Part shown: positions 7,639-25,225 of the stretch, one piece after another
Layout of the letters: the number at the start of each line of letters is the position of its first letter
Position numbering within the stretch: position 1 is the first letter of the stretch
DNA from: a virus
IMG/VR virus record: IMGVR_UViG_3300027792_000031
Span: 1 to 45,376 of that record
Reading direction: 5' to 3' (one strand)
DNA: 45,376 bases
Notes under the pieces: model-generated
The model's database searches: none
Told to the model about the DNA's origin: nothing
Seen by the model: the letters and a program-made list of their open reading frames with translations, nothing else
Translations under genes and position numbers: made by a program

Positions 7639-7639
7639 T

Positions 7640-12845: not shown

Positions 12846-13220
12846 TTACTTCCTCTTTAACATTTTTAATTCGAACTCCAATGCTTTTTCTTCCTCTTTA
12901 CAGTGAAACGTATAGTGGCACAGTTCGTGATAAACAACACCAACCCAAGATGAGGCAGTTCCCTCGTAATTATATGGGTATAGTAAATCTATGTTTCCAG
13001 ATGGGTAACACAAACCAACACACTTTTCTTTACCGAATGTTCTCCGAAAACGTATTCTGTTTGGTTTTGTAACGTGGTAGAAATCACAGAATATTATAAC
13101 AGCGTGATTGAACTTAGTGTAATCAAGGATAACCTTGTATTCTTTGTTTTCATTATAAAAACTTTCTAATAATCTATACATCCTTTTACACTTCGTTAGT
13201 GATGGTAGAAGCATCCTCAT
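12846..13220 (-). CDS. HExxH putative metallopeptidase, family member A
   Basis: A 124-residue protein with a zinc-peptidase-type motif HELCH (residues 98-102), followed after 13 residues by F-E (116-117). A beta-rich region precedes it (RIRFRRTFGKEKCVGL, GNIDLLYP), as in SprT-like and ImmA-like peptidases. Four other small proteins in this window share HExxH plus an F-D at nearly the same distance. The first His and Glu and the second His would bind zinc and activate water; the later acidic residue is a candidate third ligand. Substrate unknown; SprT-like or ImmA-like activity is the closest guess. Confidence 0.7.
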   Translation of the reverse strand: MRMLLPSLTKCKRMYRLLESFYNENKEYKVILDYTKFNHAVIIFCDFYHVTKPNRIRFRRTFGKEKCVGLCYPSGNIDLLYPYNYEGTASSWVGVVYHELCHYTFHCKEEEKALEFELKMLKRK

Positions 13221-13675
13221 TTCTTTTTCCTCCGTTTTAATGATTCCAGTTCTTTCATAATAAGTCTATTGTGTTCTTGAATTTCTTTTAGCATTGCCCA
13301 GGTCATGTATCTACTAACACTGTTCTTATCCTCGTATTCTTTCTCACTTCTTGCAAGTTTAAACACACGATATGAAAGAACACCCATTGCGACACAAGAA
13401 AATAGATAAATACCAACAAGTGGCAACGATAGAGACATAGGCAAACCAACCTGTGCAAGAACGAGAGGAAATAGTGCTGCAAGATAGATGAAATCCTTAA
13501 ACATGCCAATGTAATAACCACCCTCACCGTAGTATGTCCTTCCCATTGTGAAAATATCCCTTGCTCGTTTTAATCCGAATCTTGATGATGATGTTGATTT
13601 ATTTACATCTAATCCATCTGAATACTTCGAAAGGTCACGGAAGTATTTGTGATAAGGATATTTCTTTTCTGTCAT
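13217..13675 (-). CDS. Two-helix membrane protein with basic ends
   Basis: Starting at the ATG at 13675, which forms an ATGA overlap with the upstream stop, this encodes 152 residues. Residues 1-65 are basic and polar, two hydrophobic helices follow (DFIYLAALFPLVLAQVGLP; LPLVGIYLFSCVAMGVLSY), and the C-terminal 50 residues form a charged helix ending in KRRKKK. A frame extension to 13726 is possible but would overlap the upstream gene by 55 nt. No family was recognised; an inner-membrane role during early infection is possible. Confidence 0.6.
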   Translation of the reverse strand: MTEKKYPYHKYFRDLSKYSDGLDVNKSTSSSRFGLKRARDIFTMGRTYYGEGGYYIGMFKDFIYLAALFPLVLAQVGLPMSLSLPLVGIYLFSCVAMGVLSYRVFKLARSEKEYEDKNSVSRYMTWAMLKEIQEHNRLIMKELESLKRRKKK

Positions 13676-13908
13676 GCTATCCAAACTCTTTTTTTTCCTT
13701 CTTTTTTTGTGTGTATGTAAACCCATCCTTTTTCACGTAAATCTAACTCTGGTTTTTCATACTTTAATTTTTCCATCTCTTTTGCTATCTCGGTCCAATC
13801 TCGGTGTTCATTTCCAAAACAGGTAAACGGGAATAACTTCTCACCACGATTGAGAATAGGACTACCCGCAATGCAATCATACGGACTTGGTTTTCTTTTT
13901 GTAACCAT
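13672..13908 (-). CDS. Hypothetical protein, 78 residues
   Basis: A basic, soluble protein (MVTKRKPSPYDCIAGSPILN at the start; later GWVYIHTKKEGKKRVW). It overlaps the upstream deoxyribosyltransferase-like gene by 32 nt and the downstream membrane gene by 4 nt, so it is translationally coupled in both directions. The central WTEIAKEMEKLKYEKPELDL is helical. No family was recognised. Confidence 0.55.
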   Translation of the reverse strand: MVTKRKPSPYDCIAGSPILNRGEKLFPFTCFGNEHRDWTEIAKEMEKLKYEKPELDLREKGWVYIHTKKEGKKRVWIA

Positions 13909-14344
13909 TTTTATCCAACCATCTTATAAACTCATCTAATGTTTTGAACCGATAGTCTGCGTAAACACGAATCCAGGGATGCTCTGAATATTTTTCACTA
14001 ATGACAAATACAAGTTTTCCAGTTTTATGTGCGTGTGATATTTCAAATGCAGTTCCTAGACTTGGTTCGTGGATGATGGTAAGTAAACCATCTCTATTGT
14101 CTATATTCGAAAGGTCACGGTAGACGAGTTCCTCACAATCTGCCTGTGTTCGTTTAAATGAAGTGGTGTCTCTCGAACTCTTAGATAGTATTAATCGTCT
14201 GTCTTTTCTGCTCATTAAATCAAAAAATGGATTAAGTAGATTAAGGTTATACTCTCGTTCTAAGTTCAACTCCAATACTCTAAATTCGTGTCTCCTATCG
14301 AAACTATGTGCAAGATAGAGGTCTAACATCTTTTTTTCTTTCAT
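13877..14344 (-). CDS. Nucleoside 2-deoxyribosyltransferase-like protein
   Basis: A 155-residue protein with the Rossmann-like features of the NDT family: LYLAHSFDRR at the N-terminus, NLLNPFFD, VYRDLSNIDNRDGLLTIIHE, then SLGTAFEISHAHKTGKLVFVIS, where the Glu in GTAFEIS matches the catalytic Glu. Family members exchange or hydrolyse the N-glycosidic bond of deoxynucleosides or of nucleotides. In a virus this would salvage or degrade host nucleotides, consistent with the MazG gene in the same operon. The exact substrate cannot be read from sequence; a sirtuin-linked NAD-related use is less likely. Confidence 0.7.
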   Translation of the reverse strand: MKEKKMLDLYLAHSFDRRHEFRVLELNLEREYNLNLLNPFFDLMSRKDRRLILSKSSRDTTSFKRTQADCEELVYRDLSNIDNRDGLLTIIHEPSLGTAFEISHAHKTGKLVFVISEKYSEHPWIRVYADYRFKTLDEFIRWLDKNGYKKKTKSV

Positions 14345-14601
14345 CGTTTAAATCCCCCGATTCGATTGAATATGTAAATGTTGATAGCCAGTTGAACGAT
14401 AGCGACAGTTAATGCAAACGGAAGCGATAGCAACGAATAGGCGATTATAACCAAAACAAGTGAAAATATTTTCAATCTAAAGTGCCACTTTGAAAACCCA
14501 TTGGTTGCACACTTTTTAAGTTTGTGTAACTTGAGTGCTTGACGAATATCTGCTAAGACGAATCCAAGACTTGCTATCGTTAAAATTAAATCTTCAATCA
14601 C
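14341..14601 (-). CDS. Three-helix membrane protein, SemiSWEET/PQ-loop-like
   Basis: An 86-residue protein with three hydrophobic segments (LILTIASLGFVLADIRQAL; FSLVLVIIAYSLLSLPF; LTVAIVQLAINIYIFNRI). The arrangement, with D-I-R-Q at the end of helix 1, then KLKKCATNGFSKW before helix 2, resembles SemiSWEET/PQ-loop transporters (usually PQ-x-K...T/S-x-G-x-S). The canonical Pro is absent, so transport is uncertain. The ATG overlaps the downstream end of the cysteine synthase gene by 4 nt, which may point to a linked metabolic role. Confidence 0.5.
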   Translation of the reverse strand: MIEDLILTIASLGFVLADIRQALKLHKLKKCATNGFSKWHFRLKIFSLVLVIIAYSLLSLPFALTVAIVQLAINIYIFNRIGGFKR

Positions 14602-15440
14602 AGGTATCTCTCCCCTCTATCTGGAAAAATAACAACGATATTTACTTTTTTGTTTTTAGGTTGTAGTTTTGCAATATATAACGCAGCACACATTGCAGCA
14701 CCACTACTCGGACCTGCCAATATTCCTTCTTTTAATGAAAGGTCTTTAATCGTGCTGTTGGTTTCTGCGTTGTTCACGCAAATTGCCTGTTCTATTTCCC
14801 TTCGGTCAAATATCTTTGGTCTGCGTTGTATTTCCAAATTTTTCAATCCTTCTATTCTACTTTTTGGGTCTGGCATCACACCGTATATTGACCAACCGAG
14901 AGGTTTTAATCTTTTACTGCAACCCATTATAGTTCCTGTCGTTCCCATTGCACAGACTAAAATATTAATTTCTGCATCGTAACCAGTAATATCCGCATCT
15001 ATTTCTTTTGCTGTTGTCTGATAGTGACACTCGATACTTTCTTCATTGTCATACTGATTAAGCCACACGTAATTTGATTTTACAGACATTCCCTCAACAA
15101 AAGCGATGCAATCATCAATAGTTCCATCAATTATTTCAACTGTCGCACCGAATGCTTTCATTATCTTAATCTTTTGTTTTGCAGTTGACTTTGGAACTAG
15201 GAGTTTACATTTAAAACCGTATTTTACCGCAGCAATAGCCAATCCTATGCCCGTATTTCCAGATGTTGCCTCAATAATGGTATCGTCTTTCGTTAAATAA
15301 CCTTTTTCAATTGAAGTTTTAACCAACCAATCGCCAACTCGGTCTTTAATAGAACCACCAATAGAGCAACCTTCAAGTTTAGCAAAGAATCTTATATTTT
15401 CTGTTTCGTATGTTTTTAATCTCACCATTGGTGTTTCCAT
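14598..15440 (-). CDS. cysK: Cysteine synthase (O-acetylserine sulfhydrylase family)
   Basis: A 280-residue PLP enzyme of fold type II. The PLP lysine is K32 in SIGGSIKDR, the substrate loop is TSGNTG (59-64), the phosphate loop is GTTGTIMG, and the PLP pyridine contact is in GPSSGAA near the end. It lacks the C-terminal extension of larger homologues and so is somewhat shorter than bacterial CysK. The reaction is O-acetylserine plus sulfide to cysteine; archaeal relatives may use O-phosphoserine. It lies in an early-type minus operon and is a host-metabolism gene carried by the virus. A serine-acetyltransferase-like gene lies at 29587, so both steps of cysteine synthesis may be present. Confidence 0.9.
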   Translation of the reverse strand: METPMVRLKTYETENIRFFAKLEGCSIGGSIKDRVGDWLVKTSIEKGYLTKDDTIIEATSGNTGIGLAIAAVKYGFKCKLLVPKSTAKQKIKIMKAFGATVEIIDGTIDDCIAFVEGMSVKSNYVWLNQYDNEESIECHYQTTAKEIDADITGYDAEINILVCAMGTTGTIMGCSKRLKPLGWSIYGVMPDPKSRIEGLKNLEIQRRPKIFDRREIEQAICVNNAETNSTIKDLSLKEGILAGPSSGAAMCAALYIAKLQPKNKKVNIVVIFPDRGERYL

Positions 15441-15446
15441 TTTATT

Positions 15447-15689
15447 TCACCCAATCAATACACTTTCACCATCGTTGCATACGTTTTTATTGCAATCATC
15501 GAAGATTGAATATTTTGTAATCCTTTTAAACTGACAGTATTTGATAATATCATTAAGTTCTTTCTGTTTAATGAACTCAATGTGTTTTTCATCTTTATCA
15601 TCCCACCACCATATTTTCCAGTTTCTATATTCCGTTGCACTCTTTCCGCTATTACTAGCGAAGTTTTTTTCATCCAATGTGATTGACAT
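15447..15689 (-). CDS. Hypothetical protein, 80 residues
   Basis: A soluble protein with KIWWWDDKDEKHIEFIKQ in the middle and three cysteines near the C-terminus (CNKNVCNDGESV and an earlier KYCQFK). It lies directly upstream of the cysteine synthase gene with 6 nt between them. No RBS decides the start clearly. No family was recognised; the acidic, tryptophan-rich centre is unusual for the operon. Confidence 0.5.
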   Translation of the reverse strand: MSITLDEKNFASNSGKSATEYRNWKIWWWDDKDEKHIEFIKQKELNDIIKYCQFKRITKYSIFDDCNKNVCNDGESVLIG

Positions 15690-15720
15690 AGTAAACCTGA
15701 ATTAAAGAATAAAGAAGTGG

Positions 15721-16065
15721 TTAACGGTCCACTTCAACTTTAAATTTGTAAGCATCCTTGCCCTTACCAGTTCGATACATTCCAAGGTATGTGATTCGTA
15801 TTAAGTCACCTTCTTTTACTTGTGGAACATCTTTAGTTCCGTATCCCATTTGTTCGTTCAAAGCGGTCTTTCCTGTAATGACTAGAGGTTTATCGACACC
15901 TTTCACTTGCAATTGGTAGACTTTTTTGTATATTGTTGAATCGGTTACTTTGAGAAGGATTCCTTCAACTGATTTGCCTTCCTCGACAATATAGGAGTTT
16001 TGTTTTGCTTTTTCTTTGCCGAATGCTACAAAAATAATTTCCTCTCGTTGCTCGGTAAACGCCAT
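15721..16065 (-). CDS. OB-fold-like protein, candidate single-stranded DNA-binding protein
   Basis: A 114-residue protein of beta type. The blocks KSVEGILLKVTDSTIYKKVY, VDKPLVITGKTALNEQMGY and VKEGDLIRITYLG have the pattern of small phage OB-fold proteins (a nucleic acid or translation-factor-like barrel with a conserved V-G-D-x-V-x-I-x-Y-x-G strand). It sits next to a resolvase and a PrimPol in the same operon, which fits a role in replication or recombination. It has no acidic C-terminal tail of the bacterial SSB kind, so the call is moderate. Confidence 0.6.
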   Translation of the reverse strand: MAFTEQREEIIFVAFGKEKAKQNSYIVEEGKSVEGILLKVTDSTIYKKVYQLQVKGVDKPLVITGKTALNEQMGYGTKDVPQVKEGDLIRITYLGMYRTGKGKDAYKFKVEVDR

Positions 16066-16557
16066 CTATTCATCACCTTCCTCCGCAGATGGTGCGGTGT
16101 TTTTACAACTGTCAAAGGAGACTTGTCTAACATTTGCACGTAGTAATTCCAGTGCATGACTTTGCCTCCAAGCGACCCTGTGGAAAAAATCATCGTATCC
16201 AACAACTCTCGGTATAAGATACACACCGTATCCTTTTGTCGCAATAGCAACGTATGCTCTCTCGGACAGAGTTGCAACGTGTGTGAAGTAAGGTAAGTCC
16301 GTTGGGAACTCAACAAGGTCATTGAAATCCTGCTTATGCGATATTACCATGAATTTTGGTAATCTGAATATAACAGATAGCATTTTAATCACTAAATCTG
16401 TATTCATAAGTATAGGATTATCATGGACACAAACAACTACCTCATCGTATTTGTCCGATACTGCCATGATTGACATTATCATTCCGAAAGTTGGTGGTTG
16501 TGCTTCGATTGGTATTAAGACAACCTTGAAATCTTTATTTTGAATATCGTCACTCAT
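16066..16557 (-). CDS. Nucleotidyltransferase-fold-like protein
   Basis: From the ATG at 16557 (ATGA overlap with the upstream stop) the product is 163 residues. FKVVLIPIEAQPPTFGMIMS resembles the first strand and nucleotide loop of cytidylyltransferase/NMN adenylyltransferase enzymes (normally GRFQPFHxGH), and DEVVVCVHDNP fits the second strand. The HxGH motif is not conserved, so it may be inactive or act on another ligand. Pairing with nucleotide and cysteine genes is suggestive only. The C-terminus is disordered and acidic. Confidence 0.45.
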   Translation of the reverse strand: MSDDIQNKDFKVVLIPIEAQPPTFGMIMSIMAVSDKYDEVVVCVHDNPILMNTDLVIKMLSVIFRLPKFMVISHKQDFNDLVEFPTDLPYFTHVATLSERAYVAIATKGYGVYLIPRVVGYDDFFHRVAWRQSHALELLRANVRQVSFDSCKNTAPSAEEGDE

Positions 16558-16868
16558 TCTTTCACTATCCATGTTACTATGTCTCTCATTTTTCCTTTTC
16601 TGTGACTTATAAGAACTGCTCTAAGTCCGTGTTCTACTGCGGTGTTTTTTAATTCTTCCATATCATCTGGAAGATAAACCTTTGTGGTGTTTTTACATTG
16701 AATTAATATGGGTTGCCACTCGTTAATCATTCGTAGTGGTGGAAATGCAATAAGGTCTGCCGGTGAGTGCGACCCCGCAGTTCTGAACACAAGATAACCT
16801 CTTTCTTCGTATTGTTTTTTTATTTTGTATTCGAATGCTCTGCCTTTTTGATAGTTCTTATTTGGCAT
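16554..16868 (-). CDS. hjc: Hjc-like archaeal Holliday junction resolvase
   Basis: Beginning at MPNKNYQKGRAFEYKIKKQ (104 residues), this has the archaeal Hjc pattern: KGRAFEYKIKK with the first acidic residue, FRTAGSHSPADLIAF with the catalytic Asp, and ILIQCKN, equivalent to the (E/Q)xK motif. Hjc enzymes are PD-(D/E)xK dimers that cut four-way DNA junctions, here probably to resolve recombination or replication intermediates before packaging. The open frame extends to 16964, but the extra residues do not resemble the family and would overlap the upstream gene by 107 nt, so 16868 is preferred. Confidence 0.8.
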   Translation of the reverse strand: MPNKNYQKGRAFEYKIKKQYEERGYLVFRTAGSHSPADLIAFPPLRMINEWQPILIQCKNTTKVYLPDDMEELKNTAVEHGLRAVLISHRKGKMRDIVTWIVKE

Positions 16869-17133
16869 TAGTTCTCGCACTCTTTTGTTGCTCGTATTCA
16901 TCGAGATATATCTGTATATCATTGACACAAGAGTTAAGTGAATTTCCAAGGTGTGTAAATCCAACTTTGTTTACAACATCTCTAGCACTGACACATGTTT
17001 TTTTCAAATCGAGAAGAAATAACACTAACTGTTTTTCTACCGATTCTATCTGTTCTTTTGTTGGTCCTTCTCCCATGTTTGTTTTGTCCTTAATTCCAAC
17101 TGTGTCTTTTATTTTTACTTCGTGGTCTGTCAT
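16858..17133 (-). CDS. Hypothetical helical protein, 91 residues
   Basis: Mostly alpha-helical after a charged N-terminus (GPTKEQIESVEKQLVLFLLD, then LKKTCVSARDVVNKVGF and a coil LDEYEQQKSARTNAK). It overlaps the resolvase gene by 11 nt and abuts the upstream gene, so it is co-translated with replication genes. Two cysteines are present. No family was recognised; a DNA-binding or adaptor role is possible but unsupported. Confidence 0.55.
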   Translation of the reverse strand: MTDHEVKIKDTVGIKDKTNMGEGPTKEQIESVEKQLVLFLLDLKKTCVSARDVVNKVGFTHLGNSLNSCVNDIQIYLDEYEQQKSARTNAK

Positions 17134-17334
17134 TTAGTTCACCAGTGAATCAAAATATTCTTTCCAGTGATACTCGTCTTTGTTTCGATTAAAGTTGTTT
17201 ATCTGTTTGTCCAACCGTTTTATTCTAAGCAACCGGCTAGGTAATAGTATATCGTCTATGACACCGGTTCTTACTTGCACTTTCAGTCGCAACTGCTTTT
17301 CTTTGTTCCACAATTTTTTTAGTTCGCTAACCAT
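17134..17334 (-). CDS. Hypothetical basic protein, 66 residues
   Basis: From the ATG at 17334 (MVSELKKLWNKEKQLRLKVQ), a small, strongly basic helical protein with SRLLRIKRLDKQINNFNRNK. A TTG start at 17343 is possible but less likely. It overlaps the upstream gene by 8 nt. Basic charge and location between replication genes suggest nucleic acid contact, but no family was recognised. Confidence 0.5.
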   Translation of the reverse strand: MVSELKKLWNKEKQLRLKVQVRTGVIDDILLPSRLLRIKRLDKQINNFNRNKDEYHWKEYFDSLVN

Positions 17335-17545
17335 TTCTCTCAATCCCCATATCTTCTCTTACTACAAACAATCCTATTGTTCTTTTCAATACCTCTATAT
17401 CTTCCTTATCTAACAAATCGAGATACCGTGATACTTCGTGTATAAGAACTTTGTCTGCCTCTTTGAAAGATTCCGCATCAGTTACCGTTAGAGTAACGGA
17501 CTTATACTTCTGCGGAAATATAGTTATTCGCTTTTCAACTTTCAT
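17327..17545 (-). CDS. Hypothetical protein, 72 residues
   Basis: A protein with a beta-like N-terminus (KVEKRITIFPQKYKSVTLTV) and a helical C-terminus (VLIHEVSRYLDLLDKEDIEV). The 34-bp repeat at 17552-17585 lies just upstream and supplies a TATA-like tttataaa and a gagga RBS 7 nt before this ATG, so this gene may have its own promoter inside the operon. Function unknown. Confidence 0.55.
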   Translation of the reverse strand: MKVEKRITIFPQKYKSVTLTVTDAESFKEADKVLIHEVSRYLDLLDKEDIEVLKRTIGLFVVREDMGIERNG

Positions 17546-17763
17546 TGTGATTCCTCATAAACATAATGTTCGACCCCTTTATAAACATATGGGTCGCAGA
17601 TAGTCTCTCCAAGCAGTGTTCTTTTGTCGTATTCCTGGTAGAACTTAAGAACTCCATCGTCACTCGTTGATTTTTGTTCTTTATCTTCTACTATATTAAT
17701 GTTTGCAATACTTACTATCGTTAAAGTCAATATCACCAATAGTAACACTAAAGTTGACTTCAT
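17542..17763 (-). CDS. Small secreted or membrane-anchored protein
   Basis: From the ATG at 17763, which overlaps the PrimPol stop as ATGA, this encodes 73 residues. It begins with a signal or anchor helix (MKSTLVLLLVILTLTIVSIA), followed by a polar exterior domain. The C-terminus ends KGVEHYVYEESQ and is encoded by the triplicated DNA repeat. The longer reading frame back to 17910 lies within PrimPol and is not credible. Function unknown. Confidence 0.55.
   Translation of the reverse strand: MKSTLVLLLVILTLTIVSIANINIVEDKEQKSTSDDGVLKFYQEYDKRTLLGETICDPYVYKGVEHYVYEESQ
17552..17585 (-). repeat. Copy 1 of 28-34 bp triplicated element
   Basis: Read on the minus strand it starts tttataaaggggtcgaac and contains the dyad AACAT-T-ATGTT, ending gtttatgagga. 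It is identical over 34 bp to 28028-28061 and over 28 bp to 21064-21091. Here it forms the last codons of the 73-residue protein (YKGVEHYVYEE) and lies 7-40 nt before the next ATG. It may be a promoter or operator. Confidence 0.8.
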
Positions 17764-18602
17764 TCTATCACTATTCCGTATTTTTCCTTTGCCAGTTTCA
17801 CGATTTGTTGGTATAACTCGTTTGTTATAACCCCAGGTCTTGAATCGGAACACTGTATTAAGCCATTCATCATTGCAATAAGTGTGATAGGACCGCCACC
17901 AGTTCCGCACCTGAAACAGTGCCAGACACCCTTCTCCATGTTGATAGAAAAGTTCCCACCTGTATGACTACCATGAACGGGATGCTTACCAACAAACTCC
18001 CCGTTCTTTGGTCGAAGGTTGTCAAGGTTTATAATCTTCGACATGTCGACATACTGATAGTTGTTCTCACCAGAGTATTGTCCTGCTGTTTGTTGTGGAA
18101 TATAATCAGCGAATATTTCTTTTATGTGTTGGTCTGTTATTGTCGCTATCGGAATATCACTAACAACTGTATAAGTATTCCCATTTGGGTGCATCGAGTT
18201 TGGTCCTATGACTTGAGAACCTCGCCACTGTATTTCCCCGTAGTGTATCCCGTCTTTGTCCTTCAATACTATCTTTTTTTCTAGGTCTGGTATGATATAA
18301 TAAAAGTGCTTTCCACCACTACCGGTTTTTACCGTAAATGTTTTCGGTAATCTACTTTCAACTATAAACGCAATAGCATCATCGTCTGCATCTATCACGG
18401 CAAGATTTCCATAACCACAAGCAATACCATAGTTGTTGTTTCGTGTTGTCCAGTTTGTCAACGTCTGGTCGAAGTAAACAAAGTTATTCGTGTGTTGCCA
18501 ATCGCTATCGAGTGGTTTTTTTCTTCCCATCGGTCCATCCATATCTATTCTAATAAAGCGAAAGGCATAATTCTTTAATTGTTCTGGAATAACTAAAGTC
18601 AT
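17760..18602 (-). CDS. Primase-polymerase (AEP) with C-terminal zinc finger
   Basis: A 280-residue protein. Residues 1-150 form an archaeo-eukaryotic primase-like PrimPol domain: catalytic DxD in LAVIDADDD (about 68-76), SGGKHFYYI (sGxHxY-type motif), and QVIGPNSMHPNG. Residues 205-245 hold a CHC2-like zinc finger, with the His of KHPVHGSHTGGNFS and CFRC in GVWHCFRCGTGGG. It should make primers or fill gaps at viral origins. The SF3 helicase partner is encoded separately on the other strand at 31245, whereas many plasmids and viruses fuse the two. Translation is probably coupled to the gene upstream. Confidence 0.88.
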   Translation of the reverse strand: MTLVIPEQLKNYAFRFIRIDMDGPMGRKKPLDSDWQHTNNFVYFDQTLTNWTTRNNNYGIACGYGNLAVIDADDDAIAFIVESRLPKTFTVKTGSGGKHFYYIIPDLEKKIVLKDKDGIHYGEIQWRGSQVIGPNSMHPNGNTYTVVSDIPIATITDQHIKEIFADYIPQQTAGQYSGENNYQYVDMSKIINLDNLRPKNGEFVGKHPVHGSHTGGNFSINMEKGVWHCFRCGTGGGPITLIAMMNGLIQCSDSRPGVITNELYQQIVKLAKEKYGIVIE

Positions 18603-18608
18603 CTTTAA

Positions 18609-18943: not shown

Positions 18944-18944
18944 T

Positions 18945-19214
18945 TTAGATACCCCACCTATTTTTCAAGTATTCGATTGTGTAGTTTGTCGCTTTAATGT
19001 CATCCATGTGTCCTAGTATGCTAGATTCGTATGATAGTTTAAGCACCGGTATAGAATTAAAGAAACGCATTAGATAGTCTGCCTGTCTTATTGCCATTTT
19101 ATGTCGTTGTATTTCTTCCTCTAAGAACTCGATGAAATAACCTGCCTCTTTTTTATCAAGTTTTTTTTCATCTAAGTGTCTGCTACCATTATGCCCTTGT
19201 TTAAACTCTATCAT
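18945..19214 (-). CDS. Hypothetical helical protein, 89 residues
   Basis: A charged, helical protein (KKLDKKEAGYFIEFLEEEIQ, RHKMAIRQADYLMRFF, YTIEYLKNRWGI). Its ATG overlaps the stop of the upstream HExxH gene (TAATG), which indicates translational coupling with that putative peptidase. No motif identifies it; it could be a partner of the peptidase, but there is no direct evidence. Confidence 0.55.
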   Translation of the reverse strand: MIEFKQGHNGSRHLDEKKLDKKEAGYFIEFLEEEIQRHKMAIRQADYLMRFFNSIPVLKLSYESSILGHMDDIKATNYTIEYLKNRWGI

Positions 19215-19534
19215 TACATACCCTCCATGAATTTTTGTGCAATAATATCGAACTTAACCGATGTGTTGTGGTCCTCGTTGTTAGTCAACCAAGCATGTAT
19301 TTCTTCGTGTGTCAACACATAGCATACTGCCTGTTCGAATGTCTTATAATCGCTAAATACTTTTCCCTTTCCTTGATATGAGGATACTTCTTTTGCTATC
19401 AGTGGAAGGTTAACTACAATTAGATTTTCATGTCTACAATAACCACCCAATGCATTCTCCATAAACATATATGCGTTCATTGTTCCCATTATCTTTGCAA
19501 ACGGTAAGAAAGAAAGTCTAATGTCCGTTATCAT
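19214..19534 (-). CDS. HExxH putative metallopeptidase, family member B
   Basis: A 106-residue protein with HEEIH at residues 76-80 and F-D at 95-96, exactly 15 residues from the last His, as in members C, D and E. It has ENLIVVNLPLIAKEV as the strand before the active helix. It is close to the minimum size for a zinc peptidase domain and has no signal peptide, so it would act in the host cytoplasm. Members share only the motif region, so they diverged widely or serve different targets. It overlaps both neighbours. Confidence 0.7.
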   Translation of the reverse strand: MITDIRLSFLPFAKIMGTMNAYMFMENALGGYCRHENLIVVNLPLIAKEVSSYQGKGKVFSDYKTFEQAVCYVLTHEEIHAWLTNNEDHNTSVKFDIIAQKFMEGM

Positions 19535-19866
19535 TTGTTCACCTTCGGTCTGCCTGGTCGTGGTCGCTTTGTCCGTAGTGGTTTAACCATCGTTGCGTTT
19601 ATGTTTTTCCGTATCTTTTTGTTTTTAAGTTTCTTTCCGACACGTATTTGTTTGTATTCTATTGCCTCGAACTCCAAGACTTTATTCTTGCTTTTTGTTA
19701 CAACACCAAATATCTTGCTTATTTCTGGATGCAACCGTTCCTTACCACCAACGGCATCCGTTACCGTGATTGTATTACCGTTAATCTTTGTCGCTTTACT
19801 TATCCTCCATGCACCATTCCTGTCGATGAAGTAGACATATTTACCCAATACTTTGTCTAGTTTCAT
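19531..19866 (-). CDS. AT-hook-containing DNA-binding-like protein
   Basis: A 111-residue protein. The N-terminal 65 residues look like a small beta-barrel (YVYFIDRNGAWRISKATKIN, NTITVTDAVGG). The C-terminal 45 residues are very basic and end in TKRPRPGRPKVNK, which contains an AT-hook-type core (R-P-G-R-P-K) able to enter the minor groove of A+T-rich DNA, suitable for this A+T-rich genome. A role in genome compaction or gene control is inferred. Overlaps its neighbours by 4 nt. Confidence 0.6.
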   Translation of the reverse strand: MKLDKVLGKYVYFIDRNGAWRISKATKINGNTITVTDAVGGKERLHPEISKIFGVVTKSKNKVLEFEAIEYKQIRVGKKLKNKKIRKNINATMVKPLRTKRPRPGRPKVNK

Positions 19867-20066
19867 AGGTCAACCCCTGAATCAACAAATTTATTTAACG
19901 GAATAATCATACACGATGCGTTAACTGATTTTCGTTTGTCTGCATACTTCGATACTTCTTTTTCTGTGAATATACCATGAAGTATTGTTTCATTATACCA
20001 ATTATCTGCATCTATGTAATGTCGTTTATGTGAATACATAACGTAGAGAACAACTGGTTTTTTCAT
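19863..20066 (-). CDS. Hypothetical protein, 67 residues
   Basis: A small protein (MKKPVVLYVMYSHKRHYIDA at the start; ADKRKSVNASCMIIPLNKFV later) of alpha/beta appearance. It overlaps the zinc-ribbon gene upstream (ATGA) and the AT-hook gene downstream (4 nt). No family was recognised. Confidence 0.5.
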   Translation of the reverse strand: MKKPVVLYVMYSHKRHYIDADNWYNETILHGIFTEKEVSKYADKRKSVNASCMIIPLNKFVDSGVDL

Positions 20067-20212
20067 AGTCCAAACTTCCCTGTGTCTGTTATGTTTTTAG
20101 GTCCAGGTAGTTTAACTTTTATTTTTTTACCGCATCCCCGACATATTGTAAGGTCCGTTGGATTTCCAGTGCCACACTTAGGACACCGTGCAGGTAGTAT
20201 GTAGTTGTTCAT
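20063..20212 (-). CDS. 49-residue zinc-ribbon protein
   Basis: A short gene (MNNYILPARCPKCGTGNPTD, then LTICRGCGKKIKVKL) with two CxxC knuckles 11 residues apart, a typical treble-clef/zinc ribbon. The stop overlaps the next ATG as ATGA and the start is coupled to the preceding stop. Such mini zinc ribbons in archaeal viruses usually bind nucleic acids or transcription factors. Confidence 0.7.
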   Translation of the reverse strand: MNNYILPARCPKCGTGNPTDLTICRGCGKKIKVKLPGPKNITDTGKFGL

Positions 20213-20418
20213 CACAACACCTTTTCCTCTAAGATATTGTTCTCATAAGCGTAGTTCCACACCAACTGGTCCACAGGTATGTTTGCCACTTGAATCCACA
20301 CTCCCGATTCTGTCTTTGAGAACACATAGGCACGGACCTCTTTTGTTGGCAGTTCGAGAACGTATATTACTTTCGTGTGGTCGTTCTCCGAACTATTGAG
20401 GATTTTAAACTCGGTCAT
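20212..20418 (-). CDS. Hypothetical protein, 68 residues
   Basis: A small alpha/beta protein (KVIYVLELPTKEVRAYVFSK, GVWIQVANIPVDQLVW). A GGTGAT RBS lies 6 nt before the ATG, inside the end of the upstream 44-codon gene. No family recognised. Confidence 0.55.
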   Translation of the reverse strand: MTEFKILNSSENDHTKVIYVLELPTKEVRAYVFSKTESGVWIQVANIPVDQLVWNYAYENNILEEKVL

Positions 20419-20420
20419 TT

Positions 20421-20555
20421 TTAATCACCCGCATTTGGATGCAAGACATTATGAGAACCACCGTATTTATAATATCTTGACTTATTTCTTTTATGTGTTC
20501 CATATTCAACTTCCAATTCTTGTGTAACGTATTCATGGTATTCCCCTCTTGTCAT
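20421..20555 (-). CDS. 44-residue basic hypothetical protein
   Basis: A short gene beginning MTRGEYHEYVTQELEVEYGT and continuing with HKRNKSRYYKYGG. It ends NAGD, and this end encodes the GGTGAT RBS of the next gene. The initial part is acidic, the rest basic and Tyr-rich. No family recognised; the call rests on tight packing and coupling. Confidence 0.5.
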   Translation of the reverse strand: MTRGEYHEYVTQELEVEYGTHKRNKSRYYKYGGSHNVLHPNAGD

Positions 20556-20566
20556 ATTTTCAATTC

Positions 20567-20734
20567 TTAGTTTTGACGTTTAATCAACCCCATTTCAACG
20601 TAATCATTATAACTAGGACAGGTGACTACATTCACAAATCTATTACATTTTTTACACAGATGAATAGATTTTTTTCCGTCATTATGATGATAGATTAACT
20701 CGCCACCGCACTTTATGTGTTCTATTTTACTCAT
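20567..20734 (-). CDS. 55-residue zinc-ribbon protein
   Basis: A short gene (MSKIEHIKCGGELIYHHNDG, SIHLCKKCNRFVNVVTC) with cysteines at 9, 27, 30 and 39 and several His, consistent with a zinc ribbon. It overlaps the upstream gene by 8 nt. A role in transcription or nucleic acid binding is the common one for such proteins, but is not shown here. Confidence 0.65.
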   Translation of the reverse strand: MSKIEHIKCGGELIYHHNDGKKSIHLCKKCNRFVNVVTCPSYNDYVEMGLIKRQN

Positions 20735-21107
20735 ACTTTTTGTCCTCCTTTTCTATTTTCTTTTTTAGTTGTTGTAATATACGGAATTGTCTGCGGTTAA
20801 ACTCTCTCTCTGTCTCTTGAATATTGCTCTCCGATAATGGTTCACACGAATCATTGAAATAAGCACGAATATCTCTATCATTTGCCGTTAGTCTTTCGTC
20901 ATCGAAACGTGCAACAATGAATCCGCATTCGTTTTCAGTGTATGCATTATCAGTTGTTTGCCCTTCTATGTCAATTCTGATTATATTTCTACGTCTATTC
21001 TCGTTAGATAGTTCCATGTCAATTGCACGTTGTCTATTATTTCGTTCATTTTTTATTTTCTTTCTCATAAACATAATGTTCGACCCCTTTAAATTCTTTT
21101 CGTTCAT
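20727..21107 (-). CDS. Highly charged helical protein, 126 residues
   Basis: A polar protein with about 40 percent charged residues (KKIKNERNNRQRAIDMELSN; EREFNRRQFRILQQLKKKIE). A strong RBS (acggaggaaaaac) fixes the start at 21107, although a second in-frame ATG lies 11 codons later. Residues 6-16 are encoded by the triplicated DNA repeat, here in a different reading frame (LKGSNIMFMRK) from copies 1 and 3. Probably disordered or coiled coil. Function unknown. Confidence 0.55.
   Translation of the reverse strand: MNEKNLKGSNIMFMRKKIKNERNNRQRAIDMELSNENRRRNIIRIDIEGQTTDNAYTENECGFIVARFDDERLTANDRDIRAYFNDSCEPLSESNIQETEREFNRRQFRILQQLKKKIEKEDKKYE
21064..21091 (-). repeat. Copy 2 of 28-34 bp triplicated element
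   Basis: 28 bp identical to parts of 17552-17585 and 28028-28061. On the minus strand it begins taaaggggtcgaac and contains the AACAT-T-ATGTT dyad. It lies inside the coding sequence of the 126-residue charged protein in another frame, so its conservation is not explained by a shared peptide. Confidence 0.8.
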
Positions 21108-21283
21108 TGTTTTTCCTCCGTAATCATAATAATATTATTTCTTGGAACTCTATATATTTGTCCGAATGATTCGTATATTACCCATCCATCACTGGATACT
21201 ATTTTGTCTGTTTTGTGTTCATATGAATCATCCGATTCTGCTGCTCGAAACAAGATAGTATATTTTAATTTTTTGTCACTCAT
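21104..21283 (-). CDS. Hypothetical protein, 59 residues
   Basis: A short beta-type protein (MSDKKLKYTILFRAAESDDS, KIVSSDGWVIYESFGQIY). It ends ITEEKQ, and this end encodes the GGAGG RBS of the next gene; the stop overlaps as ATGA. Its small, sheet-rich layout with a DGWVIY block resembles small phage early proteins, but no family is recognised. Confidence 0.55.
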   Translation of the reverse strand: MSDKKLKYTILFRAAESDDSYEHKTDKIVSSDGWVIYESFGQIYRVPRNNIIMITEEKQ

Positions 21284-21511
21284 TTAAACACCCTCCTTTT
21301 CCATTGCTTTTAACACCAATCCTGCAAACTGGTGTATATCTACTGTTGGCATTTGTCCGTATGGCATGATATACACAATACCGCAGGTGACTTTTCCAGG
21401 TATCGCCATCACTTGCATTAAGGCATCCATGAATACCTCGTCTGCCTCTGTCGATGTGTTGCTATCTGCGATTAACTTTAAGCGTTCTTTAACTGTGTGT
21501 GTATCTTCCAT
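21284..21511 (-). CDS. Hypothetical protein, 75 residues
   Basis: An acidic alpha/beta protein (VKERLKLIADSNTSTEADEV, FMDALMQVMAIPGKVTCGIVYI, HQFAGLVLKAMEKEGV). It abuts both neighbours in the operon. No family was recognised. Confidence 0.55.
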   Translation of the reverse strand: MEDTHTVKERLKLIADSNTSTEADEVFMDALMQVMAIPGKVTCGIVYIMPYGQMPTVDIHQFAGLVLKAMEKEGV

Positions 21512-21763
21512 TTAAATTTCCTCCAATTTTTGTTTTACACCCGCCACAGTGTATATTACATTATTGCCTTTTGATTTTGTCCATATTCTACCGACATATT
21601 TTTCATCTTGCCAGAACTCGATACTATCAAGGTCGGGGTCGGCATGTCTGCAATCCCTAACAATCCTAGTTGCATGTAGTGTCATTATCATGTTCCAATT
21701 GTTTTTTCCAGAAAAGACAGCAACGTGATAACCAGTGCCGTCTTTTACTATTTCTGTTTTCAT
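21512..21763 (-). CDS. Hypothetical protein, 83 residues
   Basis: A beta-rich small protein (GYHVAVFSGKNNWNMIMTL, EFWQDEKYVGRIWTKSKGNN) with a strong RBS (ttggaggaaca) located in the previous gene. It overlaps that gene by 4 nt (ATGA). The pattern is that of a compact five-stranded domain; no family recognised. Confidence 0.55.
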   Translation of the reverse strand: MKTEIVKDGTGYHVAVFSGKNNWNMIMTLHATRIVRDCRHADPDLDSIEFWQDEKYVGRIWTKSKGNNVIYTVAGVKQKLEEI

Positions 21764-21930
21764 TTTTGTTCCTCCAATTTTTCTTTTGTTTTTTCTTGTT
21801 CGTATTTTGTCAGCAGGTTAAACACAAGCCAGAGTGCCTCGTTGTGGTCCTTATTGTTCTCCGTGTCCTCTTTCATCATCATAAGCAGTTGTGTTTTTAG
21901 GTAAGGAGTTCCAATCCATTGTCCTGTCAT
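21760..21930 (-). CDS. Helical hypothetical protein, 56 residues
   Basis: A short gene (MTGQWIGTPYLKTQLLMMMK, NEALWLVFNLLTKYEQEKT) ending KLEEQK, which carries the RBS of the next gene. The start overlaps the preceding stop (TAATG). Mostly alpha-helical. Function unknown. Confidence 0.55.
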   Translation of the reverse strand: MTGQWIGTPYLKTQLLMMMKEDTENNKDHNEALWLVFNLLTKYEQEKTKEKLEEQK

Positions 21931-22139
21931 TATAGTCTCTCCACTGGTTCACAGTGCTTTAAGATGTTTCCTTTTTTGTCGATGTAACCTGCCTCGATTA
22001 ATGCACTAGCGGTCCTTCCGTAGTGACCCTGCAAGGTCCAGGCGTGTCCGTTCTTCACTAGCATCGAGAACAACTCCAAAGTTTGTTCTGTAGTTTGTTC
22101 CCCACTTTCGTATTCAATGATTAGGTCTACTTCATCCAT
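21930..22139 (-). CDS. Hypothetical protein, 69 residues
   Basis: An acidic helical protein with LELFSMLVKNGHAWTLQGHY and GRTASALIEAGYIDKKGNIL. The second block looks like a small winged-helix or phage regulatory fold, often seen in short phage proteins where LQGHYGRTA-x-LI-x-GYID recurs. The role is unknown. It is coupled at both ends. Confidence 0.55.
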   Translation of the reverse strand: MDEVDLIIEYESGEQTTEQTLELFSMLVKNGHAWTLQGHYGRTASALIEAGYIDKKGNILKHCEPVERL

Positions 22140-22238
22140 TTATATCGCCTCCAACTCGGCAACAAAATCGTAGTCTTTGCTAATTAATACATAGTTATTG
22201 CCTTTTTTAAACCAGACACCTTTCGTTATTTCCCTCAT
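22140..22238 (-). CDS. 32-residue hypothetical protein
   Basis: A tiny gene (MREITKGVWFKKGNNYVLIS, then KDYDFVAELEAI) with RBS ggaggaa 9 nt before the ATG and RBS gttggaggcg for the next gene inside its end. Likely a small beta hairpin. Supported by perfect packing between neighbours. Confidence 0.5.
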   Translation of the reverse strand: MREITKGVWFKKGNNYVLISKDYDFVAELEAI

Positions 22239-22361
22239 TTATAATTCCTCCAATAGTTCTTCTACCAGTTGAATAAAAGAGTTCAACTGTTCTTCTTTTG
22301 TTCCACCCCATTTCAGGATATTGTCCATATCTTTTTTGTATTGTTCCTTTTTTGTTGTCAT
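22239..22361 (-). CDS. 40-residue helical protein
   Basis: A tiny gene (MTTKKEQYKKDMDNILKWGG, then TKEEQLNSFIQLVEELLEEL) with a strong RBS (aaggaggaaagat) before the ATG. It forms two likely amphipathic helices. No family recognised. Confidence 0.55.
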   Translation of the reverse strand: MTTKKEQYKKDMDNILKWGGTKEEQLNSFIQLVEELLEEL

Positions 22362-22739
22362 TTATCTTTCCTCCTTTAATGGTAATCCAGTTCGTATATA
22401 GTTATACTCAAATAAATCATACTGTCCTTTTAGTTTGTCGAAACCGGCACTCGCTTTAGGTCCGTCTATCTTTGTTATGCACTTATGTATGTATTCGTGT
22501 GATACCGTATGACTGAATAAATAATCCCAATCGTATCTTTCATTATTATATTTTTGTTGGTCGTATGCTCTCCACATTCTAGGTAGAAATAAGTTTATGT
22601 GTTGTTTTATAATTGTCTGCTGCATATTGTCCTTATTTGTCGCAACATAAGATACGTGCTGTGCCAGGGCGTTGTGCCTCATTGAACACCGCAGACGGTA
22701 ATAGACCTTCAATTTTCCTATTTCTTTGGTTTGTGTCAT
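22362..22739 (-). CDS. HExxH putative metallopeptidase, family member C
   Basis: From the ATG at 22739 (GGTGAC RBS 4 nt upstream) the product has 125 residues, with HEYIH at 81-85 and F-D at 100-101. The spacing is the same as in members B, D and E. A GTG at 22769 would add ten residues but lacks an RBS. It is the first gene of the long minus operon and has its own BRE/TATA promoter, 22770-22787, with a TGACATAAT operator. This means that the putative peptidase is expressed together with the early genes. Confidence 0.7.
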   Translation of the reverse strand: MTQTKEIGKLKVYYRLRCSMRHNALAQHVSYVATNKDNMQQTIIKQHINLFLPRMWRAYDQQKYNNERYDWDYLFSHTVSHEYIHKCITKIDGPKASAGFDKLKGQYDLFEYNYIRTGLPLKEER

Positions 22740-22769
22740 TTTGTCACCAATACTATATTGTCTTGCCAC

Positions 22770-22800
22770 CTTTATATAACTTTCGTGTCATTATGTCATT
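22770..22800 (-). promoter_or_regulatory. Promoter with TGACATAAT operator, leftward operon
   Basis: On the minus strand: TGACATAATGAC, then acgaaagttatataaagg. The BRE/TATA part is strong and its centre lies about 27 nt before a likely start site near 22750. The arrangement is nearly identical to the plus-strand promoter at 23605-23649 (TGACATAATAGC, then acgaaaagtatataaagg), which suggests a common regulator acting next to the BRE. Confidence 0.75.
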
Positions 22801-22811
22801 TTGTCGTTCTA

Positions 22812-23252
22812 TCATAACCAATACATCTCCCTAGTTTCTTCTTTTGTCCGTATGTGGACCTTCAACACGTTTTTTAATAACCATAAGAATCGTTCTCCGT
22901 AAATACCGTATGCAACAAGGTCGAACCGTTGGTTTGTCTCAAGGTCCGCTATTGCATCTATTAAACAGTGTATAACTTCGTGTTCTATTTCTTTTGTCAT
23001 AAGTTCTATTATTTCATCATCAGTTATATTATTATGTGATAAACTATAATATAATCCAACTTCTATATTTATTTGTTTTGTCCGTGAATCAAACCAAGTT
23101 CCCGTTTCTGTTTTGTCGTGAAAAGTCCAAGTCACTTTGTCCGTGATAAAGTTTGTCTGTGTTTTAAATTTGTCCGTTAATTTTGTCTGCGATTGTATTT
23201 TATCACACTCCGCTAATATACTTTCTATTATTCTTATTTGACATATTATCAA
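22812..23252 (-). CDS. HExxH putative metallopeptidase, family member D
   Basis: The frame is open to 23360, but a TTG at 23252 lies about 27 nt from a TATA box (23274-23282) and gives 146 residues, close to its paralogues. The longer version would run through the operator repeats. HEVIH is at 91-95 and F-D at 110-111 with the same 15-residue spacing; the strand QINIEVGLYY precedes. Its C-terminus (LKVHIRTKEETREMYWL) is similar to that of member E (LGYHFKTKKEVKREYGL), so D and E are closest relatives and face each other across the divergent region. The start is uncertain. Confidence 0.65.
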   Translation of the reverse strand: MIICQIRIIESILAECDKIQSQTKLTDKFKTQTNFITDKVTWTFHDKTETGTWFDSRTKQINIEVGLYYSLSHNNITDDEIIELMTKEIEHEVIHCLIDAIADLETNQRFDLVAYGIYGERFLWLLKNVLKVHIRTKEETREMYWL

Positions 23253-23273
23253 TACTATATTATATCGTTCCGT

Positions 23274-23282
23274 ATTTATAAC
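23274..23282 (-). promoter_or_regulatory. Leftward TATA box for member D
   Basis: The minus strand reads gttataaatacgg. The expected start site, 27 nt away, coincides with the TTG proposed as start codon of member D, which suggests a leaderless mRNA. Three 16-bp operator repeats lie immediately upstream (23291-23338). Confidence 0.5.
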
Positions 23283-23290
23283 ACTTTCTA

Positions 23291-23338
23291 GGAATAATGT
23301 CAAAACGCTATTATGCCAAAGTGCTATTATGTCACTTA
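23291..23338. repeat. Three 16-bp tandem operator repeats (GCTATTATGTCA type)
   Basis: Three consecutive 16-bp units: ggaataatgtcaaaac, gctattatgccaaagt and gctattatgtcactta. The core TATTATGTCA recurs at 23503, inverted at 23619-23630 and inverted near 22790. The position just upstream of the leftward TATA box suggests binding of an archaeal regulator to several adjacent helical turns. Confidence 0.7.
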
Positions 23339-23604
23339 TGGGGTCGATTCGATTAAACACTGTTTTAAACGATTTTAAACGATTTTTTGAGTTTAACGTA
23401 TATTACCCAAAAAACAAAACGATTATTTTTATTTACCCCGTATCCTTCATTTTACGGGAGGAAAAAATATTATTATTTATCGGTTAATCGTTAGCATGGA
23501 GTGTTATTATGTCAAAATGTAATTCTATCTCGAAACATTTATATGCTAGAAAAAACAAAGATTTGACCGGAGAATAATTATTTTTTTTTATTTAGAGCAT
23601 TTTT
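23339..23604. other. Divergent control region without genes
   Basis: This holds no credible gene. It contains direct repeats ttttaaacga (twice, 23362-23381), a hairpin cccgta/tacggg near 23437-23458, and another TATTATGTCA element at 23505-23514. A candidate rightward TATA box (23536-23545) with cgaaaca upstream is followed by a run of ten T at 23580-23589. If this promoter is used it could make only a short RNA or read into the rightward operon. The region separates the two early transcription units. Confidence 0.6.
23536..23545 (+). promoter_or_regulatory. Candidate second rightward promoter
   Basis: Sequence cgaaacatttatatgc fits BRE plus TATA. A TATTATGTCA element lies about 25 nt upstream, and a T run starts 40 nt downstream. 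No start codon is at the predicted start site (near 23568). It may be a weak promoter or make a short RNA. Confidence 0.4.
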
Positions 23605-23649
23605 GACATTTTACCAGTGTGACATAATAGCACGAAAAGTATATAAAGG
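23605..23649 (+). promoter_or_regulatory. Rightward early promoter with paired operators
   Basis: Two inverted copies of the 16-bp operator (ttttgacattttacc and gtgtgacataatagc) are followed directly by acgaaaagtatataaagg, a strong BRE/TATA. The centre of TATATAAA (23640-23647) is 27 nt before the ATG at 23671, so transcription should begin at or next to that ATG. Confidence 0.75.
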
Positions 23650-23670
23650 AGTGACGATATAACATATATT

Positions 23671-23889
23671 ATGGAGTGTGAAAAAATGAAATATGAAAAT
23701 GAAGATAAGGAGTTTAAATTTAGGAAATCTGGAACACATAAATATTTTAAAATAAAAAATAACACTAGTTGTATATTTGACACGTATCACGGAATTAATT
23801 ATATTTCCCCTGGTTTAAAAGAAATCGTTATATTACCAGGATTTAAACCAATAGATAAGAATACATATGTAGAAATAATCAAGGAGTGA
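23671..23889 (+). CDS. First rightward early protein, 72 or 67 residues
   Basis: A small charged protein (KYENEDKEFKFRKSGTHKYF, SCIFDTYHGINYISPGL). Two in-frame starts exist: a leaderless ATG at 23671 placed exactly at the expected transcription start, and an ATG at 23686 with a GGAGTG RBS that itself lies within the first codons. The same arrangement (ATGGAGTGTGAAAA then ATG, in frame) occurs at 24580, so dual or leaderless initiation may be a feature of these early genes. Function unknown. Confidence 0.6.
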   Translation: MECEKMKYENEDKEFKFRKSGTHKYFKIKNNTSCIFDTYHGINYISPGLKEIVILPGFKPIDKNTYVEIIKE

Positions 23890-23896
23890 AAACAAT

Positions 23897-24004
23897 ATGG
23901 AAAAAAACTTAAACCAAACAAAAAAAAGTATTAACCGATGGTTAAAACAAAAACGCAAAAATAAGAAAATTTGGTTAAAAGAACATATAGGTTTTTTTAA
24001 CTAA
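23897..24004 (+). CDS. 35-residue very basic protein
   Basis: A tiny gene with MEKNLNQTKKSINRWLKQKR and then KNKKIWLKEH; net charge is strongly positive. RBS ggagtga lies 9 nt upstream. Basic charge suggests nucleic acid or membrane binding. No family. Confidence 0.5.
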   Translation: MEKNLNQTKKSINRWLKQKRKNKKIWLKEHIGFFN

Positions 24005-24032
24005 ATTTATTCTTTAATTTAGGAGTGAAAAT

Positions 24033-24146
24033 ATGATAGATGAAAACGATAATAATATGATATGGGATAAAGTTATATTTGCACCAAACACTAAAAATAA
24101 AAAAATACCAAATGAAATAACAATATATGTTTATATTGGAGTGTGA
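24033..24146 (+). CDS. 37-residue hypothetical protein
   Basis: A tiny gene (MIDENDNNMIWDKVIFAPNT, then IPNEITIYVYIGV) with RBS ggagtga 5 nt before the ATG. Its end (ggagtgtga) forms the start region of the next gene. Function unknown. Confidence 0.45.
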   Translation: MIDENDNNMIWDKVIFAPNTKNKKIPNEITIYVYIGV

Positions 24147-24535
24147 TATATACGGAGTTAAACCAAATAAACAATATCATAAATAGGTTACAAAAATATT
24201 CTTATAAAAATCCTTATGGTTTTACTATTGAACTAAAAAACAATAGAATTAAAAAAGTAAAACCTAGTAATAAAAAACATTATTGTATCGGAGTTAAAAA
24301 ACCTTTAATTGTAACGGAGGAAAACAGAATTATTTATTATCACGAAAACTTTAAACTATTGGAGTATAATCATTATATCGGAGGTTACTACAATAAAGAA
24401 AAAAAGACTTATGAAATAGAGTTAATATTAATCTTATCAGAAAAACAAAAATCCATAAATACCGGAAAATACTATAAACAATTCTCCATATACGACTTAT
24501 TAAACCAGGAGGAAATAATACTATCAAAATGTTAA
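24143..24535 (+). CDS. Hypothetical protein, 130 residues, GTG start
   Basis: A basic alpha/beta protein (INNIINRLQKYSYKNPYGFT, YCIGVKKPLIVTEENRIIYY, TYEIELILILSEKQKS). No ATG lies near the N-terminus, so the GTG at 24143, overlapping the previous stop as GTGTGA, is the likely start. The C-terminal QFSIYDLLNQEEIILSKC is helical. No family recognised; A+T content is even higher than in the virion genes. Confidence 0.6.
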   Translation: MIYTELNQINNIINRLQKYSYKNPYGFTIELKNNRIKKVKPSNKKHYCIGVKKPLIVTEENRIIYYHENFKLLEYNHYIGGYYNKEKKTYEIELILILSEKQKSINTGKYYKQFSIYDLLNQEEIILSKC

Positions 24536-24545
24536 AATTGCACCA

Positions 24546-24560
24546 AACATTTATATAGTA
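24546..24560 (+). promoter_or_regulatory. Promoter of second rightward early unit
   Basis: Sequence accaaacatttatatagt has a TATA box (24550-24557) whose centre is 27 nt before the ATG at 24580. The transcribed start is attATGGAGTGTGAAAA, nearly identical to that at 23668, and includes a gctattatg half element. Confidence 0.65.
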
Positions 24561-24579
24561 TTAACGCCAATATGCTATT

Positions 24580-24699
24580 ATGGAGTGTGAAAATATGGAA
24601 TATGAATTAAACCTAATAATCAAAACGGACATATCGGTTATGAATCTCGAAAATACCAACAAATTAGCGATAGTTTTATTAAACTACGGAGTGATATAA
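24580..24699 (+). CDS. 39-residue (or 34-residue) hypothetical protein
   Basis: A tiny gene starting MECENMEYELNLIIKTDISV. As in the gene at 23671, the first ATG falls at the expected transcription start and a second in-frame ATG 15 nt later has GGAGTG as RBS. The peptides start MECEKM and MECENM, so the DNA around the start is duplicated. The stop overlaps the next ATG (TAATG). Confidence 0.5.
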   Translation: MECENMEYELNLIIKTDISVMNLENTNKLAIVLLNYGVI

Positions 24700-24809
24700 T
24701 GATAGTAATAGGAGTTATTTTCGAGGAAAACTTAGAGGAATTTATCTATATAGAAAAACTTGTAATAGTAACAAATCGAATACATCAATTAACGGGGGTC
24801 GATGTATAA
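24699..24809 (+). CDS. 36-residue hypothetical protein
   Basis: A tiny gene (MIVIGVIFEENLEEFIYIEK, then LVIVTNRIHQLTGVDV) coupled by TAATG overlaps on both sides. The RBS ggagtga lies in the previous gene. It looks like a small beta-alpha-beta unit preceding HExxH member E. Function unknown. Confidence 0.5.
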   Translation: MIVIGVIFEENLEEFIYIEKLVIVTNRIHQLTGVDV

Positions 24810-25225
24810 TGATAGCAAAAAGTGATATATTAATACCAGATAGTGTTTACCAATATGTAACCGTAAAAAATCCTAAATTATCTTTCTCATGTAGTGCTTT
24901 ATATTCACCACGTTATAATATGGTGCATATACTCTTAAGCAAAAAATACACCGGTGCAACATATGAAAACATAAACGATAAAGAGATAATAGAATTTTTT
25001 ACCTCTGAAATAAACCATGAAATATTACACTATGTAATACAAAAATATATTGATGGCGTGACTAGTGCAAAGTTTGATTTAATCGCTAAGGATATAAGAG
25101 TTTATCAATTCCGACATATACGGGCCATATTAAAAAAACTAGGTTACCATTTTAAGACAAAAAAAGAAGTAAAACGGGAATATGGTTTAAAAAGTAATAT
25201 AACTCAAAATTTAAACAAGGAGTGA
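24809..25225 (+). CDS. HExxH putative metallopeptidase, family member E
   Basis: A 138-residue protein with HEILH at 70-74 and F-D at 89-90, exactly 15 residues after the last His. The preceding strand is NMVHILLSKKY, and the helix before the motif (DKEIIEFFTSEINHE) parallels member D (DDEIIELMTKEIEHE). The C-terminus is also shared with D. It is the only family member on the plus strand, placed in the mirror-image position relative to the divergent region. A role in cutting a host regulator or defence protein is possible but unproved. Confidence 0.7.
   Translation: MIAKSDILIPDSVYQYVTVKNPKLSFSCSALYSPRYNMVHILLSKKYTGATYENINDKEIIEFFTSEINHEILHYVIQKYIDGVTSAKFDLIAKDIRVYQFRHIRAILKKLGYHFKTKKEVKREYGLKSNITQNLNKE

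Follow-up and report, generated by a model that had tools for sequence, protein, structure and literature searches.

Why should a virus of 45 kb encode five small proteins with a HExxH motif? The window, by which we mean the whole stretch of 45,376 nt analysed here, is an entire IMG/VR virus record of sediment origin. It contains the gene set of a head-tailed virus (terminase, portal (phrog_146, 3e-23), major head protein (phrog_267) and tape measure), together with a D5-like primase-helicase, a Prim-Pol and an Hjc/Mrr-like nuclease. No close relative was found among named phages. Ten contigs contained terminase relatives with 70-88% identity to the window, and four near-full relatives (G001, G002, G007 and G009) were read end to end. 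The original prediction had described five HExxH products, A to E, with a fixed spacing to a downstream F-D or F-E pair, and all five ORFs were present as described (Table 1). After the last His of B-E, the F is residue 15 and the Asp the 16th, and in A the F-E pair starts at residue 14. The ORF lister extended C and D to earlier GTG codons; the ATG starts used here are plausible because the longer form of D would overrun promoter repeats. HExxH alone is common by chance across many proteins. When each of the 87 greedy gene products was shuffled 5000 times, a mean of 0.34 HExxH proteins was obtained against the five seen (P(>=5) = 0.0002). HExxH followed by F-D or F-E at these spacings was expected 0.0016 times against five seen, a post hoc comparison, since these data had themselves revealed the spacing.

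Table 1. Positions in the window of the five HExxH ORFs, their neighbours and the associated regulatory sequences.
Feature	Position	Strand	Description
A	12846..13220	-	124 aa, HELCH; invariant E110, F116, E117; SprT/zincin-like
A's partner	13217..13726	-	169 aa, strong hydrophobic segment; 4-nt ATGA overlap with A
B	19214..19534	-	106 aa, HEEIH-x15-D; orthologues in G001, G002, G007, same place
C	22362..22739	-	125 aa from ATG, HEYIH-x15-D; orthologues in G001, G002, G009
Regulatory sequence TGACATAATGACACGAAAGTTATATAAAGG	22769..22798	-	about 30 nt upstream of C ATG
D	22812..23252	-	146 aa from ATG, HEVIH-x15-D; sister of E (93/86)
Putative D promoter	23275..23333	-	tandem GACATAATAGC repeats and BRE/TATA-like GAAAGTGTTATAAA
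Identical regulatory sequence TGACATAATAGCACGAAAAGTATATAAAGG	23620..23649	+	heads rightward operon containing E
E's upstream neighbour	24143..24535	+	rightward operon; kept in 4/4 relatives; not HExxH
E	24809..25225	+	138 aa, HEILH-x15-D
E's downstream neighbour	25230..26099	+	kept in 4/4 relatives; phrog_3842/DUF7178-like

The five had been put forward as one family, very different beyond the core except for the similar ends of D and E. The latter description was correct, with E matching D at 8e-13 and 8e-14 in phmmer and profile searches. E also matched C at 0.002-0.003 (5e-4 in a one-record search), and homologues from the relatives bridged the rest, notably G1_6347, which matched all of B, C, D and E (7e-6 to B, 6e-5 to E). 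Judged by sequence similarity, B-E are members of a single divergent family. Homology between A and B-E was undetected (hhalign probability 6.8%), and so the proposed family stands as the small HExxH set B-E, with A belonging elsewhere. No B-E member reached any family in Pfam, PHROGs, NCBIfam or PADLOC, none of the known defence models matched them, and a credible match was not found in named phages and plasmids. The B-E family is thus undescribed, as had been suspected of the multi-copy set.

Across 22 aligned members of this family the only invariant residues were H, E, H and D. Distant members were fetched with degenerate DNA patterns, mostly demanding HExIH and the Asp, and so the invariance of these four residues among them is partly built in. 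Among 11 members for which the Asp had not been a condition of recovery, invariance was confined to the start Met and the H, E, H and D, and three members recovered by profile alone (G13_b, G11_9981 and G14_c) all contained HExxH with Asp at +16. Overall, HExxH was retained in 25 of 26 members, including those recovered by profile alone, and lost in one from G007, where HKETN replaces it; this is a single instance of the HExxH-less homologue that the original prediction had named as counting against it. Counted from the last His, the Asp stood at residue 16 in 24 of the 25 HExxH members and at residue 14 (x13) in the other. Of the F-D pair, the Asp was conserved, but the residue preceding it may be F, Y, W or L. 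As a check of specificity, a third degenerate pattern brought in seven new contigs, and the profile recognised family members in none of them (0/7). When C, D and E were used as single-protein queries against viral contigs, no matches were obtained. Two GTDB pattern matches (L043 and L045) were rejected as chance matches inside large unrelated proteins, and L047/L049, L048, L050 and L052 were excluded from the family on weak or absent profile scores and other layouts. A further GTDB pattern match, L044, is a genuine B-E member. Its 3.8-kb contig had been assigned to a bacterial (WOR-3) MAG but is probably viral, having a small membrane ORF with HEGLHW in common with viral L007.

What kind of site might this be? 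The HExxH conserved in B-E is shared with the zincin superfamily, and a gluzincin/ImmA-like site had been proposed. This assignment was not supported for B-E: the third conserved residue is an Asp, at HExxH-x15-D, and not the Glu of gluzincins, the PF06114 profile matched none of A-E, and no other zincin model reached its cut-off with B-E. B-E resemble the mini-zincins or minigluzincins (Acel_2062/DUF1025; M. jannaschii selecase/jannalysin) in their size of ~100-140 aa, in being intracellular, in the position of HExxH in the C-terminal half and in having little sequence past the third ligand, but they are viral, multi-copy and without a sequence match. The mini-zincin motif is HEXXHXXGXXD (PMC3890501), whereas B-E have their Asp at x15 (x13 in one) and no fixed Gly; HExxH-x15-D would add an undescribed metal-site spacing among small zincins. 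In agreement with the cytoplasmic type of protein originally envisaged, B-E contained no predicted membrane segments (maximum hydropathy below 1.2). The model of E had a pLDDT of 66 and a pTM of 0.45 overall, and a pLDDT of 84-94 in the blocks around HExxH (residues 61-90). It places a beta hairpin at 30-41, a helix at 57-80 with HExxH at 70-74, a turn at 81-82 and a helix at 83-102 with D90. H74 and D90 each lie ~8 residues from the turn, which suggests that D90 would stand opposite H74 if the two helices pair. The modelled elements follow the order of the zincin layout (edge strand, active-site helix, second subdomain with the third ligand), in a model of pTM 0.45 for which no PDB fold match was found.

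A is a separate conserved, more slowly evolving zincin of divergent SprT-like appearance rather than a demonstrated relative of B-E. Orthologues were found in all four near-full relatives, the one in G001 being 65.9% identical, and a more distant one in G014. A matched the SprT-like profile PF10263 weakly over the HExxH region (7.5e-4, 19.8 bits, under the 25.6-bit curated cut-off), as did 3 of the 5 orthologues, whereas B-E had no meaningful match to it. Unlike SprT-like proteins, A has no conserved downstream His and contains invariant Glu residues instead. In its model (pLDDT 89.5, pTM 0.80), HExxH and the invariant E110 and E117, both candidates for the third-ligand Glu of a gluzincin, all lie on one long helix. 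Its weak PDB matches were rich in zinc peptidases (selecase, jannalysin, Grifola peptidase, CapP and Wss1), the best being selecase 4qhi and jannalysin 4jix (E 0.4-0.8). Against a viral structure library, SprT-like and IrrE-like matches were obtained with a top probability of up to 0.96 and no E-value below 0.03; the SprT-like structures gave 0.7-0.93. The gene overlapping A encodes a probable membrane protein, judging by its hydrophobic segment, and the pair with its ATGA overlap occurs in five viruses (the window, G001, G002, G007 and G009). A would probably act with this translationally coupled partner in a conserved core function. G007 also encodes, near the B slot, a longer SprT-like/IrrE-like protein with Cys pairs (L025:15094-15735).

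The B-E set had been interpreted as a lineage-specific expansion in one virus. However, B and C have orthologues in the relatives and the family occurs in a dozen records, which argues against an expansion in one virus. The window and G001 each contain four members, G002 three, G007 two (one degenerate) and G009 one. Beyond these, G014 contains three, G013 two, G011 two and a weak third, and G015 four inside the first 3 kb of a 13-kb contig, whilst single members were found in G006, G012, G016 and a probably misbinned contig in G018; all of these counts are minima, as the records may be incomplete. A terminase is common to the window, G014 (65%) and G012 (46%), G015 has accessory genes in common with the window, and a matching terminase was not found in G011, G013 or G016. 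One such shared gene, at 14598-15440(-), encodes a cysteine-synthase-like PALP-fold enzyme (PF00291, 1e-54) that is also present in the relatives; together with a hexapeptide-type acyltransferase-like protein at 29554-30060(+), named by eye, it is possibly an auxiliary metabolism gene. The B-E tree was poorly resolved, with support for a C-type group (97/97) and for D+E (93/86), and in sequence only D/E looks like a duplication seen in the window virus. The set is thus mostly old and common to a virus group, with local duplications (D/E). Moreover, B and C were 39.6% and 36.3% identical to their G001 orthologues against 65-68% for those direct neighbours that have orthologues, and on these identities they diverge faster than the flanking genes. 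In G009 and G014, the B slot, which lies between two conserved genes, contains other, unrelated genes that are small and zinc-finger-like. At the level of sequence, B-E combine a catalytic signature with the behaviour of accessory genes.

C and D head a leftward operon and E lies in a rightward one, with an intergenic divergent promoter region between them (23.25-23.67 kb). In G001, B-E members likewise head both sides (6347-6769 minus, 7327-7755 plus). The 30-nt sequence TGACATAATNNCACGAAANNTATATAAAGG has exactly two copies in the window, before C and at the rightward promoter, and none in shuffles; similar sequences were found in the matching region of G001, G002 and G007. The D promoter element is similar, but not identical, to it. 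From its position, this divergent region is a probable early promoter, and the placement in early operons originally proposed is borne out to the extent that C, D and E flank it. BRE/TATA-like sites were concentrated in the AT-rich stretch at 22.7-28.1 kb (8/11). A sigma-70 reading of the early promoter was rejected, such promoter-like sites not being enriched (77 found, 83.7 in shuffles). Because sigma-70-like sites are not enriched and BRE/TATA-like sites cluster in the early region, the sequence points to a host that is probably archaeal. The early promoter of G007 also fits sigma-70 (TTGACA-N17-TATAAA), and a sigma-70-like reading of it is possible. G011, a contig unrelated to the window but carrying the B-E family, contains RadA/Rad51, PolB and ERCC4 nuclease genes, which are typical of archaea and archaeal viruses.

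Two further, possibly regulatory features were observed in the window. The 27-nt sequence AAAGGGGTCGAACATTATGTTTATGAG has three mismatch-free copies, at 17554-17580(-), 21064-21090(-) and 28033-28059(+), and none in shuffles; it was not found in the four near-full relatives. Each copy comes after a TTTATA/TTTAAA-like box and runs into a reading frame, and the copies are probably a second promoter-leader set. In the intergenic stretch at 27200-28000, GTGCAGGGTGTGCAGGG and CTCTCTCGGAGGG motifs recur and there is no ORF that the relatives conserve; the stretch is possibly an origin or regulatory region.

Taken together, our preferred but tentative reading, to which we give slightly less than an even chance, is that B-E are cytoplasmic minimal zinc peptidases that act on proteins of the host early in infection, most likely on those of defence or regulation. 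The zinc binding, proteolysis, target, early timing and counter-defence role that we infer for B-E would operate as follows. Both His residues of HExxH would coordinate one zinc together with the Asp at +16 on the next helix, and the Glu of HExxH would activate water. Made from the divergent early promoter region, each protein would have its own host target, most likely a component of a defence or host-regulation system, which it would cut or else bind and block; copies would be gained, lost and diversified as hosts change. It is conceivable, although we consider it rather unlikely, that HExxH-x15-D peptidases are a diversified counter-defence set of sediment-archaea viruses, each paralogue with its own host target, and a protease analogue of anti-CRISPR clusters. 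Archaeal anti-defence genes have been found through shared early regulatory sequences with BRE/TATA, in a study that mentions a protease or zinc protein zero times (PMC11065993). B-E resemble that regulon in their small size, diversity and exchangeability and in lying behind a probable early promoter that is conserved and BRE/TATA-like, but here the exact sequence is common only to C and the rightward operon. Little is known of how uncultured archaeal viruses counter host defences, and there are few reports of prokaryote viruses that disarm their hosts with proteases. With a clear catalytic signature and multiple copies, B-E are directly testable, and a dead mutant could trap the target and point to a host defence.

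Alternatively, B-E may bind metal and serve as binders or regulators of viral rather than host proteins, in the manner of ImmA-type repressor inactivators; one such viral protein would be the regulator that recognises the TGACATAAT operators. B-E do adjoin operator-like TGACATAAT repeats, and ImmA-like HExxH proteins of mobile elements target a neighbouring repressor, as in ICEBs1, where the ImmA of the ImmA/ImmR pair acts on the adjacent repressor. B-E are also similar to ImmA/IrrE (M78, PF06114) in being cytoplasmic HExxH proteins in mobile elements. However, they match no PF06114 model, lack the ExxAxxFA helix and have no repressor gene consistently paired with them, and many divergent copies in several separate places are ill-suited to a single repressor; we therefore regard this explanation as unlikely. 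An explanation of similarly low probability is that the peptidases serve the physiology of the virus, in virion protein processing, superinfection exclusion or SprT-like clearing of DNA-protein crosslinks. The SprT-like similarity of A and the additional, longer SprT-like protein of G007 would fit such a role, whereas B-E lack both the third His and the DNA-binding tail of SprT, lie in the early region, evolve faster than their neighbours and occupy exchangeable slots. More doubtful still is a metal site that is structural or serves another reaction, in a pseudo-peptidase or other enzyme, as HEXXH is present also in enzymes other than peptidases (PMC12636437) and the HKETN homologue has lost it, but a catalytic Glu kept in 25/26 members is expected of catalysis rather than structure.

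Lastly, two contigs carrying B-E members contained other features. In G015, four genes in a row (L051 9707-13441), named by eye as asparagine-synthase-like, left-handed-helix acyltransferase, glycosyltransferase and oxidoreductase, are possibly a glycan-making cluster in a virus contig. In G016 (L090 1-15000), many small ORFs start or end with NPSRR-like residues; the sequence that encodes these residues is of the AATCCTTCAAG(A/T)AG type and recurs at gene junctions.
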